A stretch of DNA of 64,000 nucleotides from Pseudomonas putida (GTDB lineage: Bacteria > Pseudomonadota > Gammaproteobacteria > Pseudomonadales > Pseudomonadaceae): NCBI GenBank assembly GCA_029953615.1, contig CP124529.1, positions 5,420,494 through 5,484,493 of the forward strand. The letters are read 5' to 3'. The notes below the pieces were generated by a model. The model did no database searches, was not told the origin of the DNA, and was given only the letters and a program-made list of their open reading frames with translations. Every line of letters begins with the position of its first letter. The first letter of the stretch is position 1. Of the stretch, positions 24,290 through 31,705 are shown piece by piece. A program made the translations under genes and the position numbers.

Positions 24290-25811
24290 TTGCCAAGGTT
24301 CAACACGCTCGGGGCCGAACGCCTGGCCCTGATTACCCTCGCCATATTGCTGGTGGGCGCGGGTATCGGCTGGCGCCAGCCGATGAATGTGGATGAAGAA
24401 CGCTTTCTCGGCGTCGCCCTGGAAATGCTGCAGAGCGGCAACTGGTTCATCCCGCACCGGGCAGCGGAAATCTACGGCGACAAGCCGCCGTTGTTCATGT
24501 GGACCGTGGCTATGTTCAGCCACCTCACCGGCTCGCCCAAGGTGGCCCTGTACCTGCCTGGGCTGCTGTCGGCGGCAACCATCACCTGGGTGCTACATGA
24601 CCTGGGGTGGCGCCTGTGGAACCGGCGCATCGGCGTGATCGCCGCCTTGCTGTTCCTGGCTACCTACCAGAGCTACAGCATCCTGCGCACCGGGCAGATC
24701 GACAGCTTCCTGTGCCTGTGGGTGGCATTGGGTTTCTACGGCATGCTGCGCCACTTGCTGCTCGGGCCGGCGTGGGGCTGGTTCTACCTGGCCTGCATCG
24801 CCATGGGCCTGGGCATCATCAGCAAGGGCGTGGGCTTTATCCCGGCGCTGCTACTGCTGCCCTATGCCTGGGCGGTGCGCCACCGCTGGCACGGGGTTGT
24901 GACCATGCCCGGCCAGGGTTGGCGCTGGTGCCTGGGGCTGCTGTGGCTGCTGGCCGGTTGCGCGGTGTGGCTGCTGCCACTGCCTGGTATCGATTGCCCA
25001 TGGCGGTGGCGCGGCGGAGCTGGCCTATCTGAAGGAGATCCTGCTGCGCCAGACCGCCAGCCGCTATGCCAATGCCTGGGACCATCGCGAACCGTTCTGG
25101 TACTTCTTCGTCAAGGTCATCCCCAAGTACTGGTTGCCATTGGTGCTGGCCCTGCCCTGGCTGGTACCGGCCTGGCGCCGACAGTTGCACAAACGGGACG
25201 GGCGCTTCTTGCTGCTGCTCGGCTGGGTGGCACTGGTGCTGTTGTTTTTCAGCCTGAGCAGCGGCAAGCGCAAGCTGTATGTCTTCCCGGCGCTGCCGGG
25301 TCTGGTGCTGGCCATCGCGCCGCTGTTGCCGTGGCTGCTCAAGCGCTGGCTAGGCGGCCGTCCGGCCTGGCGCAAGGTGTTCACTGCGGTGGCCCTGGCA
25401 TGGTTTGCGCTGTGGTTTGCGCGCGGTTTCGTCGAGCCGTCGAAGGAAGGCCGCAACCCGCATGAGACATTGATGACCGAAGCTGCACGAGCCACAGGCG
25501 GCGCCGAGCTGGTGCTGGTCAACTGGCGCGAGGGGCATTGGCTGTTTGCCCGGCAACCCATCGTGCACTTCGGTTTCACCGACCAGTCCAGGGCGGATGC
25601 AGCCGTCTACTGGCTGCGCCACAACCCTGCCGCCTTTGCCTTGGTCCCGGCTTCGGAACTGGGCCGCTGCTTCAGTGCCGACAAGGCACGCAGGCTGGGC
25701 CAGACCTCGCGCGCCGAATGGTATGTGGTCGCTGCCGACGCCGATAATGGCCATTGCCAGGCCACGGCCCCCAGCCATGTCTACCACTTCGCCTGGGCGG
25801 CCTCGCCTTAG
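24290..25811 (+). pseudogene. ArnT-like GT83 glycosyltransferase, broken by a +1 frameshift
   Basis: The frame from a TTG at 24290 encodes the N-terminal part of an ArnT/GT83 inner-membrane transferase: 'PMNVDEERFLGVALEMLQSGNWFIPHRAAEIYGDKPPLFMW' with the family DE and KPP blocks, then several membrane helices. Near 24983 an extra C shifts the frame. Downstream the proper continuation (HGGGAELAYLKEILLRQT, then the ORF with VLALPWLVPAWRR and a soluble C-terminal domain) is in the other frame to 25811. Total length 1522 bp is 3n+1. If repaired, about 506 residues would be made, the usual ArnT size. Either a decayed gene or a sequencing error. Confidence 0.85.
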
Positions 25812-25881
25812 TGCCTGTCAATGTTTCCGCAGGAATCCGCGGGCCGGTGCACAATCACTTGCAATCCGTCACATCTCAAAA

Positions 25882-25901
25882 TACTGTATGAATATTCAGT
25901 A
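25882..25901 (+). promoter_or_regulatory. LexA (SOS) box
   Basis: TACTGTATGAATATTCAGTA fits the SOS consensus CTG-N10-CAG with matching outer TA and inner AT-rich bases. It ends 15 bases before the ATG at 25917, overlapping where the promoter must be, so LexA would repress the downstream DNA repair pair. Confidence 0.85.
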
Positions 25902-25916
25902 TCACAGGTCAGCCCC

Positions 25917-27137
25917 ATGCAACTCATTGCCAAACTCGGCATCCTTGCCGATGCTGCCAAGTACGACGCATCCTGCGCCAGCAGCGGCGCGCCCAAGCGC
26001 AACTCGCGCGGGGCTGATGGCCTGGGTGCTACCAATGGCATGGGCATCTGTCACAGCTACACCCCTGACGGGCGCTGCGTGTCGCTGCTCAAGGTGCTAC
26101 TGACCAACTTTTGCCTCTACGACTGCCAATACTGCGTCAACCGCCGCTCCAGCAACGTGCCACGCGCACGTTTCAGCCCCGAGGAAGTGGTCCGGCTGAC
26201 GCTGGACTTCTACCGGCGCAACTGCATCAGCGGCCTGTTTCTCAGCTCTGGCATCATCCGCTCGGCGGACTACACCATGGAGCAACTGATCCGCGTGGCC
26301 CGGCTGTTACGCGAGGAGCACGGCTTCCGTGGCTACATCCACCTCAAGACCATCCCTGATGCCGATCCGCTGCTGATCGAGGAGGCCGGGCGCCTGGCTG
26401 ACCGGCTCAGCGTCAACATCGAGCTGCCGACCGACGCCAGCCTGAAACGCCTGGCACCGGAGAAACAGGCGCACACCATTCGCCAGGCCATGGGCGTGAT
26501 CCACCGCGGCCAGCAAGCCGTGGCCCAAGAACCCAAGGCGCCGCGCTTTACCCCGGCCGGGCAAAGCACCCAGGTGATCGTCGGGGCCGACAGCACCGAC
26601 GACAGCACATTGCTGCGCAATGCCGAATCGCTGTACCAAGGCTACGGCCTCAAGCGCGTGTACTATTCCGCCTTCAGCCCCATCCCCGACAGCCCCGGCA
26701 GCGTACCCCTGGCCGCACCGCCGCTGCTGCGCGAACACCGCCTGTACCAGGCTGACTTCCTGTTGCGTGGCTATGGCTACAAGGCCGGCGAGCTGCTGGG
26801 TCAGAGCGGCAACCTGGCACTGGACATCGACCCCAAGCTGGCCTGGGCGCTGGCCAACCGCGAAGTGTTCCCACTGGATGTGAACCGTGCCGAGCCGGCG
26901 CTACTGGCACGCATCCCCGGCATTGGCCTGCGCAGCGTGCAGCGCCTGGTAGCCCTGCGACGCGAACGGCGCATTCGCTACGATGACCTGATCCAGTTGC
27001 GCTGTGTGCTGGACAAGGCGCGGCCGTTCATTGTTACCAGCGACTACCGCCCGGCCCAGGCCGAGTTGCGCAGCGGCCTGCTGAGGGCGCGCTTGCGTGA
27101 GCCGCAGGCGCCGGTGCAAATGGGCTTGTGGGGATGA
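25917..27137 (+). CDS. radical-SAM DNA modification/repair protein (UDG-linked family)
   Basis: A 406-residue protein of the group annotated 'putative DNA modification/repair radical SAM protein'. The 4Fe-4S motif is CLYDCQYC (CX3CX2C) near residue 70. A helix-hairpin-helix near the C-terminus (ARIPGIGLRSVQRLVALR) should contact DNA. Its start overlaps nothing, with an SOS box directly upstream. The stop overlaps the start of the paired UDG-like gene (ATGA). The chemistry is undefined; DNA base repair is the favoured idea because of the HhH, the partner and the LexA control. Confidence 0.9.
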   Translation: MQLIAKLGILADAAKYDASCASSGAPKRNSRGADGLGATNGMGICHSYTPDGRCVSLLKVLLTNFCLYDCQYCVNRRSSNVPRARFSPEEVVRLTLDFYRRNCISGLFLSSGIIRSADYTMEQLIRVARLLREEHGFRGYIHLKTIPDADPLLIEEAGRLADRLSVNIELPTDASLKRLAPEKQAHTIRQAMGVIHRGQQAVAQEPKAPRFTPAGQSTQVIVGADSTDDSTLLRNAESLYQGYGLKRVYYSAFSPIPDSPGSVPLAAPPLLREHRLYQADFLLRGYGYKAGELLGQSGNLALDIDPKLAWALANREVFPLDVNRAEPALLARIPGIGLRSVQRLVALRRERRIRYDDLIQLRCVLDKARPFIVTSDYRPAQAELRSGLLRARLREPQAPVQMGLWG

Positions 27138-28012
27138 TCGCGCTCGACTGCGACGGCCTGTTCGCCACCTGGCGTGACCAGGCCCGGGTGTTGTTGGGGC
27201 ATGGCGTCGACCCGTCGGAGGTCACCTGGGTGCAAGGGCCGGTGGCTGATTTGCTGGCCATGCCGACAGCACTGCCGGAAGGCCCCGGTCCTTTTCGCGC
27301 CAAGGTGCCAGCGGCGCTGCTGGGCCAGCTGGAACAGGCGGCTCGCTACCGTGGCGAGCAGCGCTGGAACCTGCTTTACGAGGTACTTTGGCGGGTGGCC
27401 CATGGCGACCGCACTGCCATGCTGGCGGGCGACCGATTGGGCAGTGAGCTGCACAGGCGGATCAAGCAGGTCAATCGCGAAGCGCATCACCTGCATGCGT
27501 TCGTACGCTTCGTGCCACTGCCCGAAGTACTGGCTGAACAGCTGCAAATTGACCTGGTGGCCTATCACGAACCGGCGCATGACATTCTGGAAAGCGCCAG
27601 TGCGCATTTCGCAGACCGCCTGGGGCGTTTGCGCTGGTTGATTGCCACGGCCAACGACGGCATACGCTTCGATGGCCAGGCATTCGACTACCAGCGCCAG
27701 TGCCCCGAGCCCTGGCGCCAGTGGGCGCGCAACGCCGAAGACCCTGGCGCGGAATTGTGGCGCACCTACTATCGCCATACCTTCAACCCTGCCCGCCTCA
27801 ACCCCGATGCCTTGCGCCTGCACATGCCCGGCCGGTTCTGGCGCCATTTGCCGGAGGGCATGCTCATTCCGCAGCTCGAAGGCCTGGCTCGGCAAGGCAA
27901 GCAACGGGATGGCCAAGCCCTGGAAGTCGCCTCCCAGGCTGGCAAACAGATCAGCAAGCCCACGAACCATTCTCAAGCCGAACGATCAGCCGCCACAGCC
28001 GTCATAACCTGA
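27134..28012 (+). CDS. TIGR03915/DUF4130-type probable DNA metabolism protein
   Basis: The ATG at 27134 overlaps the preceding stop. The 292-residue product has the layout of the protein always linked to the radical-SAM repair enzyme: 'DCDGLFATWRDQARVLL' at the start, 'RRIKQVNREAHHLHAFVRFVPL' in the middle, 'YHEPAHDILESASAHFADR', 'DWLIAT'-like LRWLIATAND, and 'WRTYYRHTFNPARLNPDALRLHMPGRFWRHLPEG'. Members have been related to uracil-DNA-glycosylase-like proteins. It belongs to the same SOS-controlled operon. The function is unproven. Confidence 0.85.
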   Translation: MIALDCDGLFATWRDQARVLLGHGVDPSEVTWVQGPVADLLAMPTALPEGPGPFRAKVPAALLGQLEQAARYRGEQRWNLLYEVLWRVAHGDRTAMLAGDRLGSELHRRIKQVNREAHHLHAFVRFVPLPEVLAEQLQIDLVAYHEPAHDILESASAHFADRLGRLRWLIATANDGIRFDGQAFDYQRQCPEPWRQWARNAEDPGAELWRTYYRHTFNPARLNPDALRLHMPGRFWRHLPEGMLIPQLEGLARQGKQRDGQALEVASQAGKQISKPTNHSQAERSAATAVIT

Positions 28013-28042
28013 GCCGCTGCCGACACGCAAAGAGGACGCGAA

Positions 28043-30109
28043 ATGACCCCACCCGATCCGTCATACGTCAAATGGCTCGAAGACCGCGCCATGCTCAGGG
28101 TCTCCCAGCAACGCACCCACCTGTACTCCGGCCAGTCGCGCCTGTGGCAACAGCCCTACGCCGAAGCCCAACCCCGCCGGGCCACCGAGATCGCTTCGGT
28201 CTGGCTGACCGTCTACCCCGACGCCATCATCGCCCCCGACGGTTGTTCGGTGCTTGGGGCCCTGGCCCACGAGGCGCTGTGGAAGCGTTTGTCGGAGATC
28301 GGCATCCAGGGCCTGCACACCGGCCCGATCAAGTTGTCTGGCGGCATCCGTGGCCGTGAGCTCACCCCCAGCGTCGATGGCAACTTCGACCGCATCAGTT
28401 TCGACATCGACCCGCTGTACGGCAGCGAGCAGGAGCTGGTCCAGATGAGCCGCATGGCCGCCGCGCACAACGCCGTGACCATCGACGACCTTATCCCTTC
28501 GCACACTGGCAAGGGCGCCGACTTCCGCCTGGCCGAGCTGGCCTACGGTCCCTACCCGGGGCTGTACCACATGGTCGAAATCCGCGAGGAAGACTGGCCG
28601 TTGCTGCCCGAAGTGCCGGCCGGGCGCGACGCAGTCAACCTGCTGCCGGCCCAGTGCGACGAGCTCAAGGCCCGCCATTACATCGTCGGCCAGCTACAAC
28701 GGGTGATCTTCTTCGAGCCAGGTGTGAAGGAAACCGACTGGAGCGCCACGCCGCCGGTGACCGGTGTGGATGGCAAGACCCGGCGCTGGGTGTACCTGCA
28801 TTACTTCAAGGAAGGCCAGCCGTCGCTGAACTGGCTGGACCCGACCTTCGCCGCCCAGCAGATGATCATTGGCGATGCCCTGCACGCCCTGGACTGTCTG
28901 GGCGCCCGCGGCCTGCGTCTGGATGCCAACGGCTTTCTCGGCGTGGAGACGCGCGCCAGCGGCACCGCCTGGTCGGAAAGCCACCCGCTGTCGATCGTCG
29001 GCAACCAGCTGATCGGCGGCATGATCCGCAAGGCCGGCGGTTTCAGCTTCCAGGAACTGAACCTGACCCTCGACGATATCGCGCAGATGTCCAGGGGCGG
29101 TGCCGACCTGTCCTACGACTTCATTACCCGGCCGGCCTACCAGCATGCACTGCTGACCGGCGACACCGAGTTCCTGCGCCTGATGCTCAAGGAAATGCAC
29201 GCCTTCGGCATCGACCCGGCCTCGCTGATCCATGCCTTGCAGAACCATGACGAGCTGACCGTGGAGCTGGTGCATTTCTGGACCCTGCATGCCCATGACA
29301 TGTACCTGTACAAAGGCCAGACGTTGCCCGGCGGCATCCTGCGCGAGCACATCCGCGAAGAGATCTACGAACGGCTGTCAGGCGAGCATGCGCCGTACAA
29401 CCTGCGCTTCGTCACCAATGGCATAGCCTGTACCACGGCCAGCCTGATCGCTGCCGCACTGGGTATCCGCGACCTTGGGCAGATCGGCGCGGCAGAAACA
29501 GAGCTGATCCAGAAGGTGCACCTGCTACTGGTCATGTACAACGCCATGCAGCCGGGGGTGGTGGCGCTGTCCGGCTGGGACCTGGTGGGCGCCCTGCCCT
29601 TGCCCGCCGAAGCGGTCGCGCAGCGGATGCTGGATGGCGATACCCGCTGGATTCACCGGGGCGGCTACGACCTGGCCGGGCTTGAGCCGCAGGCCCAGGC
29701 GTCAGTGCGTGGCATGCCCCGTGCCCGGTCGCTGTATGGCAGCCTGGACAGCCAGCTGGAAAACGGCGATTCGTTTGCCTGCAAGGTGAAGAAACTGCTG
29801 GCAGTGCGTCAGGCCTATGGCATCGCCACCAGCCGTCAGCTGTTGGTGCCCGACGTCAGCAGCCCCGGCTTGCTGGTAATGGTGCATGAGCTGCCGGCCG
29901 GGCGCGGCATTCAGATCAGTGCACTGAACTTTGGCCAGGAAAAGATTGCCGAGGAGCTGCAACTGACCGGATTCACGCCGGGGCCGGTGGTGGACATGAT
30001 CAATGAAACGGTCGAAGGGGATTTGACCGAAGATGGGCGGCTGATGGTGAACCTGGACCCGTATGAGGCGCTGTGCCTGCGGATCGTCAACAGCAGTGGC
30101 CATGTCTGA
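28043..30109 (+). CDS. treS: trehalose synthase (GH13, Pseudomonas type)
   Basis: A 688-residue GH13 enzyme of the length of the characterised Pseudomonas trehalose synthases, which interconvert maltose and trehalose. The GH13 boxes are '[13 protein letters not shown]' (I), '[13 protein letters not shown]' with the nucleophile Asp (II), 'FQELNL' with the acid/base Glu (III) and 'QNHDEL' with the transition-state Asp (IV). The C-terminus is a small beta domain. '[14 protein letters not shown]' marks it. It is unlike actinobacterial TreS in sequence. An AGAGGA lies before the start. It is followed by a large repeat array. Confidence 0.85.
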
Positions 30110-30168
30110 ATGGTATTTGCCCCATTGCCTTCGCCGGTGAAGTTCTGAACGGCAGCCACGCGACATTT

Positions 30169-31705
30169 GTGGGAGCGGGTTTACCCGCGAACACCGGCGC
30201 AGCCGCTGCCATCCACCGCGTCGCCTGCTTCGCGGGCATGCCCGCTCCCACAGGGACCTGACCAACTGAAGGAATGCGCCATACCTGTTGGAGCGGGCGC
30301 GCCCGCGAACACCGGCGCAGCCGGTGCCATCCACCGCGTCGCCTGCTTCGCGGGCATGCCCGCTCCCACAGGGTCCGTACCAGCTGAAGGAATGCACCAT
30401 ACCTGTGGGAGCGGGCGCGCCCGCGAACACCGGCACAGCCGGTGCCATCCACCGCGTCGCCTGCTTCGCGGGCATGCCCGCTCCCCACAGGGTCCGTACC
30501 AGCTGAAGGAATGCGCCATACCTGTGGGAGCGGGCGCGCCCGCGAACACCGGCGCAGCCGGTGCCATCCACCGCGTCGCCTGCTTCGCGGGCATGCCCGC
30601 TCCCACAGGGTCCGTACCAGCTGAAGGAATGCGCCATACCTGTGGGAGCGGGCGCGCCCGCGAACACCGGCGCAGCCGGTGCCATCCACCGCGTTGCCTG
30701 CTTCGCGGGCATGCCCACAGGGTCCGTACCAGCTGAAGGAATGCACCATATCTGTGGGAGCGGGTTCACCCGCGAACACCGGCGCAGCCGGTGCCATCCA
30801 CCACGTCGCCTGCTTCGCGGGCATGCCCGCTCCCACAGGGACCTGACCAACTGAAGGAATGCGCCATACCTGTGGGAGCGGGCGCGCCCGCGAACACCGG
30901 CGCAGCCGGTGCCATCCACCGCGTCGCCTGCTTCGCGGGCATGCCCGCTCCCACAGGGTCCGTACCAGCTGAAGGAATGCACCAGGACCTGTGGGAGCGG
31001 GTTCACCCGCGAACACCGGCGCAGCCGGTGCCATCCACCGCCTCGCCTGCTTCGCGGGCATGCCCGCTCCCACAGGGTCCGTACCAGCTGAAGGAATGCA
31101 CCATATCTGTGGGAGCGGGTTCACCCGCGAACACCGGCGCAGCCGGTGCCATCCACCGCGTCACCTGCTTCGCGGGCATGCCCGCTCCCACAGGGTCCGT
31201 ACCAGCTGAAGGAATGCGCCATACCTGTGGGAGCGGGCGCGCCCGCGAACACCGGCGCAGCCGGTGCCATCCACCGCGTCGCCTGCTTCGCGGGCATGCC
31301 CGCTCCCACAGGGTCCGTACCAGCTGAAGGAATGCACCATACCTGTGGGAGCGGGCGCGCCCGCGAACACCGGCACAGCCGGTGCCATCCACCGCGTTGC
31401 CTGCTTCGCGGGCATGCCCACAGGGTCCGTACCAGCTGAAGGAATGCACCATATCTGTGGGAGCGGGTTCACCCGCGAACACCGGCGCAGCCGGCCGGTG
31501 CCATCCACCGCGTCGCCTGCTTCGCGGGCATGCCCGCTCCCACAGGGTCCGTACCAGCTGAAGGAATGCGCCATACCTGTGGGAGCGGGCGCGCCCGCGA
31601 ACACCGGCGCAGCCGGTGCCATCCACCGCGTCGCCTGCTTCGCGGGTGAACCCGCTCCCACAGGGTCACCTGCAGCTGACGGAGTGCGCCGTACCTGTGG
31701 GTTTA
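30169..31705 (+). repeat. tandem array of 13 REP-pair (BIME-like) units, about 118 bp each
   Basis: Each unit has a forward REP (GTGGGAGCGGG...CCCGCGAAC), an ACCGGC/GCCGGT stem, a spacer ATCCACCGCGTCGCCTGCTT, an inverted REP (CGCGGGCATGCCCGCTCCCA) and a linker GGTCCGTACCAGCTGAAGGA. Units begin at 30169, 30286, 30404, 30524, 30642, 30754, 30872, 30991, 31109, 31227, 31344, 31457 and 31579, plus a truncated repeat to 31705. Units at 30642 and 31344 share a 7-bp deletion and a C-to-T change, six units apart. It is not a CRISPR because both parts of the unit are conserved. Confidence 0.92.

Follow-up and report, generated by a model that had tools for sequence, protein, structure and literature searches.

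A pair of overlapping genes in Pseudomonas putida probably forms a LexA-repressed repair operon, whose SOS-induced products, a radical SAM protein recruited to the sliding clamp and a DUF4130 protein, would act on a DNA lesion. The pair lies within the 64,000 nt analyzed here (the window; GCA_029953615.1, CP124529.1 positions 5,420,494-5,484,493, forward strand). This reading is built on clade-matched LexA boxes, a pairing that is obligate in the sampled genomes, a clamp-type motif and a cysteine triad in the radical SAM protein, and the absence of UdgX from this genome. The features of the locus, in window coordinates, are as follows.

25882..25901, + strand: LexA box TACTGTATGAATATTCAGTA, 15 nt before the ATG at 25917, with 1 mismatch to TACTGT-N8-ACAGTA.
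25917..27137, + strand: radical SAM protein of family TIGR03916 (rSAM_link_UDG), 406 aa; 535.1 bits, cut-off 343.5.
25974..26078, + strand: span of the codons for C20 (25974-25976), C45 (26049-26051) and C54 (26076-26078), a candidate auxiliary Fe-S/metal site, from their invariance in the family.
26112..26135, + strand: radical SAM cluster motif C66-x3-C70-x2-C73, kept in 220/220 family members.
26874..26969, + strand: helix-hairpin-helix (HhH), residues 320-351, a likely non-specific DNA contact, from a sub-threshold HHH_3 match and conservation.
27117..27131, + strand: C-terminal sliding-clamp-binding-type motif QMGLW, residues 401-405, from the motif match and family conservation.
27134..28012, + strand: TIGR03915/DUF4130 protein, 292 aa, without a UDG domain; 179.4 bits, cut-off 112.25.
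27356..27856, + strand: DUF4130 (PF13566) domain core, residues 75-241; 113.5 bits, cut-off 27.

The original prediction, a radical SAM gene with an HhH behind a LexA box and coupled by ATGA to a TIGR03915 gene, was confirmed by the family scores, which exceed their cut-offs, and by the position of the box 15 nt upstream; the ATGA is the overlap of the radical SAM stop codon with the DUF4130 start codon. No sigma-70-type promoter and no terminator pattern were found in a scan of positions 25700-28100. Just 5' of the pair (24290-25811) lies a membrane glycosyltransferase-like (ArnT-like) coding region, which by eye is apparently split across two frames.

The consensus forms of LexA boxes are general knowledge. 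In the 5.76 Mb genome, TACTGT-N8-ACAGTA occurs with up to one mismatch at 7 sites, including the box of the pair, and perfectly at 3 sites, whereas with up to two mismatches 50 sites were found versus 67 for the reversed control pattern. Within the window, CTGT-N8-ACAG was not enriched (13 found vs 22.8 expected), and the 24 matches with up to one mismatch to the Gram-positive type GAAC-N4-GTTC (18.3 expected) were judged irrelevant. The match in this single genome is, by itself, not beyond chance. The significance of the box comes instead from its conservation across relatives: the gene was found in 21 of the 25 genus genomes, our own included, and a box with up to two mismatches occupies the same place at all 21 loci, with a spacer that varies.

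This conservation extends beyond the genus. Among the first 123 loci, 117 have, no more than 150 nt from the start, either a gamma-type box with up to one mismatch or a perfect alpha-type one. Perfect gamma-type or alpha-type boxes are present at 173 of 214 loci; they end a median of 13 nt 5' of the start codon (161/173 within 40 nt), the start codons having been chosen by a simple rule in the scripts. For non-redundant upstream windows, defined by less than 60% shared 5-mers, perfect boxes were seen in 107 of 128, versus 19 of the 4305 control windows that these loci supplied (log10 binomial tail -228). The protein searches for relatives gave the best 120 of 732, the best 120 of 8000 scored and the best 120 of 7998 scored; some loci overlap between sources (L218-L221 repeat L189, L173, L151 and L143).

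In a named set of 80 loci, with clade labels assigned by hand from record titles (28 gamma/beta, 50 alpha and 2 Verrucomicrobiota), CTGT-N8-ACAG was found with up to one mismatch at 27 of the 28 gamma/beta loci, 18 of them perfect, and the alpha-type at none. Conversely, perfect GTTC-N7-GTTC was found at 48 of the 50 alpha loci and the gamma-type at none, even when one mismatch was allowed. No perfect box, gamma-type or alpha-type, was found at the two Verrucomicrobiota loci; a gamma-type match with one mismatch is present at one of them. The form of the box follows the LexA specificity of each clade, which is hard to explain except by LexA control, and two LexA proteins over the family cut-off are encoded in the genome. 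Thus, LexA control of the pair is well supported at the level of sequence, and we infer that LexA binds the box and that DNA damage induces the operon. The clade-matched boxes also support the earlier claim of LexA/SOS control and, with it, of a role in DNA damage, which follows from this control.

Several loci count against a universal box. None of the four box types, allowing one mismatch, was found at L022, L024, L069, L070, L075, L154 and L167; L064 has a Gram-positive-type near-match only, and L187 has a perfect Gram-positive-type site only. The box is also weak outside Pseudomonadota, with no box at L212, L215 and L216, and with non-cognate or one-mismatch matches only at L211, L213, L214 and L217. 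The loci L069, L070 and L075 have in common the palindrome TCTCATCCAATGAGA near the radical SAM start, which is no known LexA box and is possibly another operator.

The pair had also been predicted to be widely conserved, and this held true: among 397 Pseudomonadota genomes, TIGR03916 was over its cut-off in 103, every one of which also has DUF4130. TIGR03915 was over its cut-off in 106 genomes and found at any level in 107. The four genomes that have DUF4130 without the radical SAM protein are G211, G222 and G270, over the cut-off, and G108, with a fragment below it. DUF4130 lies downstream on the same strand in 120 of the 123 loci, mostly overlapping or tens of bases off and in a few cases up to about 560 nt away; of the three remaining loci, one has it adjacent (L022; G111) and two have it about 3 kb off (L067, which is G230, and L072, which is G238).

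In many of the relatives, DUF4130 is fused to the uracil-DNA binding glycosylase UdgX (TIGR03914). The lengths of 189 DUF4130 proteins fall into 71 of up to 330 aa, 115 of over 450 aa and 3 between, and the GEQPGD motif of the UdgX half is present in 110 of the 115 long proteins versus 0 of the 71 short ones. The two long proteins scanned (L106 and L055) were both over the TIGR03914 cut-off. Profile A2 matched UdgX structures at 2.6e-71 via the UdgX half, its other matches being weak and at chance level. UdgX was over the cut-off in 75 of the 103 radical-SAM genomes, as well as in 16 genomes without the radical SAM protein.

These observations raise the alternative that the pair acts in uracil or base-excision repair, by feeding a uracil-DNA glycosylase or helping it, consistent with the term putative UDG-based base excision system used for it in the accessible part of PMC8565304. 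However, the DUF4130 protein of the window has no UDG domain, and TIGR03914 has no match at E <= 1e-3 in the whole genome, so the designation of the pair as UDG-like fails here. Moreover, 12 of the 397 genomes, our own included, belong to the genus and have the pair; of these, only G091 was over the UdgX cut-off and G370 gave a weaker match, whereas DUF4130 accompanies the radical SAM protein in 103 of 103 genomes. We therefore consider a glycosylase-centered role unlikely. The invariable pairing with DUF4130 and the patchy occurrence of UdgX indicate that the core consists of the radical SAM protein and DUF4130, the UDG being optional. In other lineages, UdgX is an additional domain fused to DUF4130. 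Within the genus, with its full match in G091, its weak match in G370 and mostly none in the other members, the distribution looks as if the UdgX domain were being lost.

For the radical SAM protein, the HhH was detected as a sub-threshold Pfam match (HHH_3, 20.5 bits vs the gathering score of 27), and the region gave weak matches to the HhH of RuvA and ComEA. Its core residues P334, G335 and G337 are unchanged in 220/220 family members, and R332 in 219/220. The C20/C45/C54 triad is complete in all 220 members and makes, together with C66/C70/C73, six invariant cysteines, which renders a second metal centre a fair guess from the sequence; it could hold zinc instead of an Fe-S cluster. This triad points to what chemistry to look for. 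The protein matched no SPL family model, TIGR03916 being the only NCBIfam match at E <= 1e-3, and sequence searches for solved structures returned no relative of the whole radical SAM protein and none of the DUF4130 domain.

Peptides of the Q-x-x-L-F type bind the beta clamp, and the clamp consensus forms are general knowledge. A peptide of this kind is located at the very end of the radical SAM protein, following a linker that is mostly poorly conserved. It reads QMGLW in the window protein and most commonly QLSLF in the family: in 128 non-redundant proteins, QLSLF occurs 25 times, QLELF 18 times, QLSLL and QASLF 7 times each, besides others. The strict motif Q[LMIVA]x[LMI][FLWYIM] was found within the last 14 residues of 108 of these 128 proteins, whereas shuffled tails averaged 1.2 matches and never exceeded 5. 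When a penta- or hexapeptide was accepted anywhere in the tail past position 370, 207 of the 220 members matched, and the Gln was kept in 219. Among control ORFs, taken from the window and from L131-L210, the strict motif appeared in 2 of 435, one of which is, by our own identification, presumably the C-terminus of DNA polymerase II.

The tag is also present in Bacteroidota (L211 and L212), in Bacillota (L213), in L216, which is labelled Acinetobacter, in L214 (QLSLW), a divergent protein from Gemmatimonadota, and in 6 of 9 distinct Verrucomicrobiota members. If Phe is admitted at position 4 as well, 23 of the 26 non-redundant clostridial-type proteins, drawn from the best 120 of 7998 scored, carry the tag; in Clostridia a tail of about 15 to >50 residues is appended after it. 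The 13 of 220 members that miss both motif definitions count against the tag, although most are near-variants such as QGSLF and QRDLF. Among the rest of these 13, L224 has GELDLAV, which is not close, and L189 and L218 (the same protein) have QLELN. SOS polymerases such as DinB and ImuB are LexA-controlled clamp clients, and the DinB of this genome has the C-terminus EQLELFPPK and the LexA box CTGTATGAATTTACAG upstream. We infer that the radical SAM protein binds the beta clamp. Its C-terminal tag suggests that it would repair DNA at or behind the replication fork, and would indicate where the pair works.

The Verrucomicrobiota provided a natural control. In 145 of their genomes, the family was over its cut-off in 8, and 24 further proteins scored 245-296 bits; 22 of these 24, together with the Gemmatimonadota protein L214, were taken as 23 sister proteins. 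The Verrucomicrobiota sisters (L229-L250) make up a radical SAM-HhH subfamily with no clamp tag, no full triad and no DUF4130 in the flanks examined. DUF4130 was beside none of the 23 sisters in these flanks, which in most cases spanned roughly 1.5 kb either side, less for L229, L232, L233 and L244, and the whole 8 kb locus for L214; L237 has a UDG-like stretch upstream. The full C20/C45/C54 triad is present in 0 of the 23, with C45, H46 and C54 absent from all and C20 kept in 21. The tag is absent from 22, L214 being the exception. By comparison, canonical Verrucomicrobiota loci have DUF4130 in 7 of 9, none being seen for L218 and L224 in the sequence examined. Among the proteins compared here, presence of the triad coincides with that of DUF4130, and presence of the tag almost does. 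However, L214 is tagged and has no DUF4130 within 8 kb, which counts against a strict link between tag and DUF4130.

Such co-occurrence would also be expected if the QxxLF peptide were no clamp tag but a conserved element that closes the fold or provides a docking site for DUF4130, since the 22 untagged sisters are without DUF4130 in the flanks examined. We regard this as very doubtful, because the peptide fits the clamp consensus, sits at the extreme C-terminus after a poorly conserved linker, tolerates the added clostridial tails, resembles the tags of the genome's own DinB and of the apparent Pol II, is kept in L214, and recurs in a second LexA-boxed family described below.

The strict pairing could, alternatively, reflect a maturase, in which the radical SAM enzyme would install a radical modification on DUF4130 (or UdgX), and this modified partner would be the actual repair enzyme. 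Modification of a partner protein is common among radical SAM enzymes, and both the co-occurrence in 103 of 103 genomes and the often adjacent or overlapping genes fit this arrangement. In contrast, it is the radical SAM protein that bears the HhH and the clamp motif, and a clamp-type motif was found in 0 of the 189 DUF4130 proteins, which argues that the radical enzyme, and not its partner, is placed at the DNA. A maturase is improbable in view of this distribution.

The second family is found in the same genome, outside the window (L125:1292-2350). This radical SAM protein belongs to the PA0069 family (NF033668; 490 bits vs 360), which we take to be SplB-like; one of the genome's three perfect TACTGT-N8-ACAGTA sites lies 13 nt upstream of its gene, and the protein ends with QLPLL. 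Among 51 loci of this family (that of our own genome, 30 from a genome search and 20 picked from genomes of the same class), the strict tag was found in 45 and a perfect LexA box in 29, and the family was over its cut-off in 144 of 299 genomes. The PA0069 protein resembles the TIGR03916 protein in combining a LexA box with a C-terminal tag, whereas it belongs to a separate radical SAM family. That two families each have a LexA box and a clamp tag suggests that radical chemistry may be brought to the DNA at the fork or behind it. It is quite possible that SOS-induced, clamp-tethered radical SAM enzymes form a class with no fewer than two distinct families (TIGR03916 with DUF4130, and PA0069), which would provide fork-delivered direct repair as an alternative to translesion synthesis.

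Taking the pair as a clamp-recruited repair operon, the following sequence of events can be proposed. DNA damage would lead to LexA cleavage, lifting repression from the radical SAM enzyme as well as from DUF4130, its obligate partner. The enzyme would be recruited to the beta sliding clamp via QMGLW and would touch DNA through the HhH. With a 5'-deoxyadenosyl radical, and probably with the help of a second metal centre at C20/C45/C54, it would then reverse or modify the damage, be it a base or a crosslink, in DNA that is stalled or newly replicated, and DUF4130 would recognize the lesion or complete the reaction in a second step. In many other bacteria, the UdgX fused to DUF4130 would add uracil or abasic-site capture, which this genome dispenses with. 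What the enzyme acts on, and in which direction its chemistry runs, are conjectural in this scheme; that the damage would be directly reversed, and the DNA not modified in another way, is suggested by analogy with spore photoproduct lyase. The resemblance to this enzyme, SplB, lies in radical SAM-based DNA repair, whereas the window protein differs in having an HhH, a clamp-type tag, an extra cysteine triad and a constant partner. Similarly, DinB shares the LexA box and, as QLELF, the tag, whereas DinB and ImuB are polymerases and not radical enzymes.

In published work, the TIGR03916 protein presumably appears under the name COG4277. SOS regulation of a COG1573-COG4277 pair is in print for Bacteroidetes, and the accessible part of that paper credits earlier SOS reports for Verrucomicrobia and Alphaproteobacteria (PMC8565304). 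In PMC3765255, DUF4130 was named in 2013 as a predicted mutagenesis-related enzyme that is linked to SplB-like radical SAM proteins and to UDGs, and in the accessible part of a Cr/U fitness paper (PMC5554334) radical SAM is mentioned once, for NirJ. The pair had originally been called undescribed, which holds for its function, as none was found in the literature searched, and not for its SOS control, which the accessible part of PMC8565304 already reports. The literature search found no function for the TIGR03916/TIGR03915 pair, no paper naming TIGR03915, no paper joining UdgX with radical SAM, and no report linking radical SAM enzymes to the sliding clamp, the co-mentions being off-topic by their titles and the starts of their abstracts.

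The pair of the window is like the putative DNA modification/repair pair TIGR03916/TIGR03915 in that both proteins exceed the curated cut-offs, and in being widespread and SOS-controlled. In the accessible parts of the publications on this pair, the clamp tag and the cysteine triad are not mentioned, and the window version differs in being without UdgX. As far as the literature search shows, the following are new: the clamp tag, which nearly correlates with DUF4130 and the triad; the census of LexA boxes by clade in Pseudomonadota; a core without UdgX in Pseudomonas; and the PA0069 parallel. The UdgX-free Pseudomonas version offers a minimal system for reconstitution. If the proposed scheme is true, radical-based repair at the replication fork joins the DNA-damage response.

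Two other readings were considered and rejected. For anti-phage defence, there was no PADLOC match at E <= 0.1. For a phage origin, the PHROGs matches were weak only, 1 of 49 pattern matches in viral contigs was confirmed, and 10 phage records had a match. In one of these records, L216, which is 240 kb long and labelled Acinetobacter phage, the pair adjoins glyQ/glyS, and the record looks like a bacterial host chromosome.

On the other side of the pair, the window contains a GC-rich unit of 118 bases in about 13 tandem copies (30168-31701); the array lies 3' of a sugar-enzyme-like ORF (28043-30109) and 5' of a riboflavin-synthase-like ORF, both named by eye.
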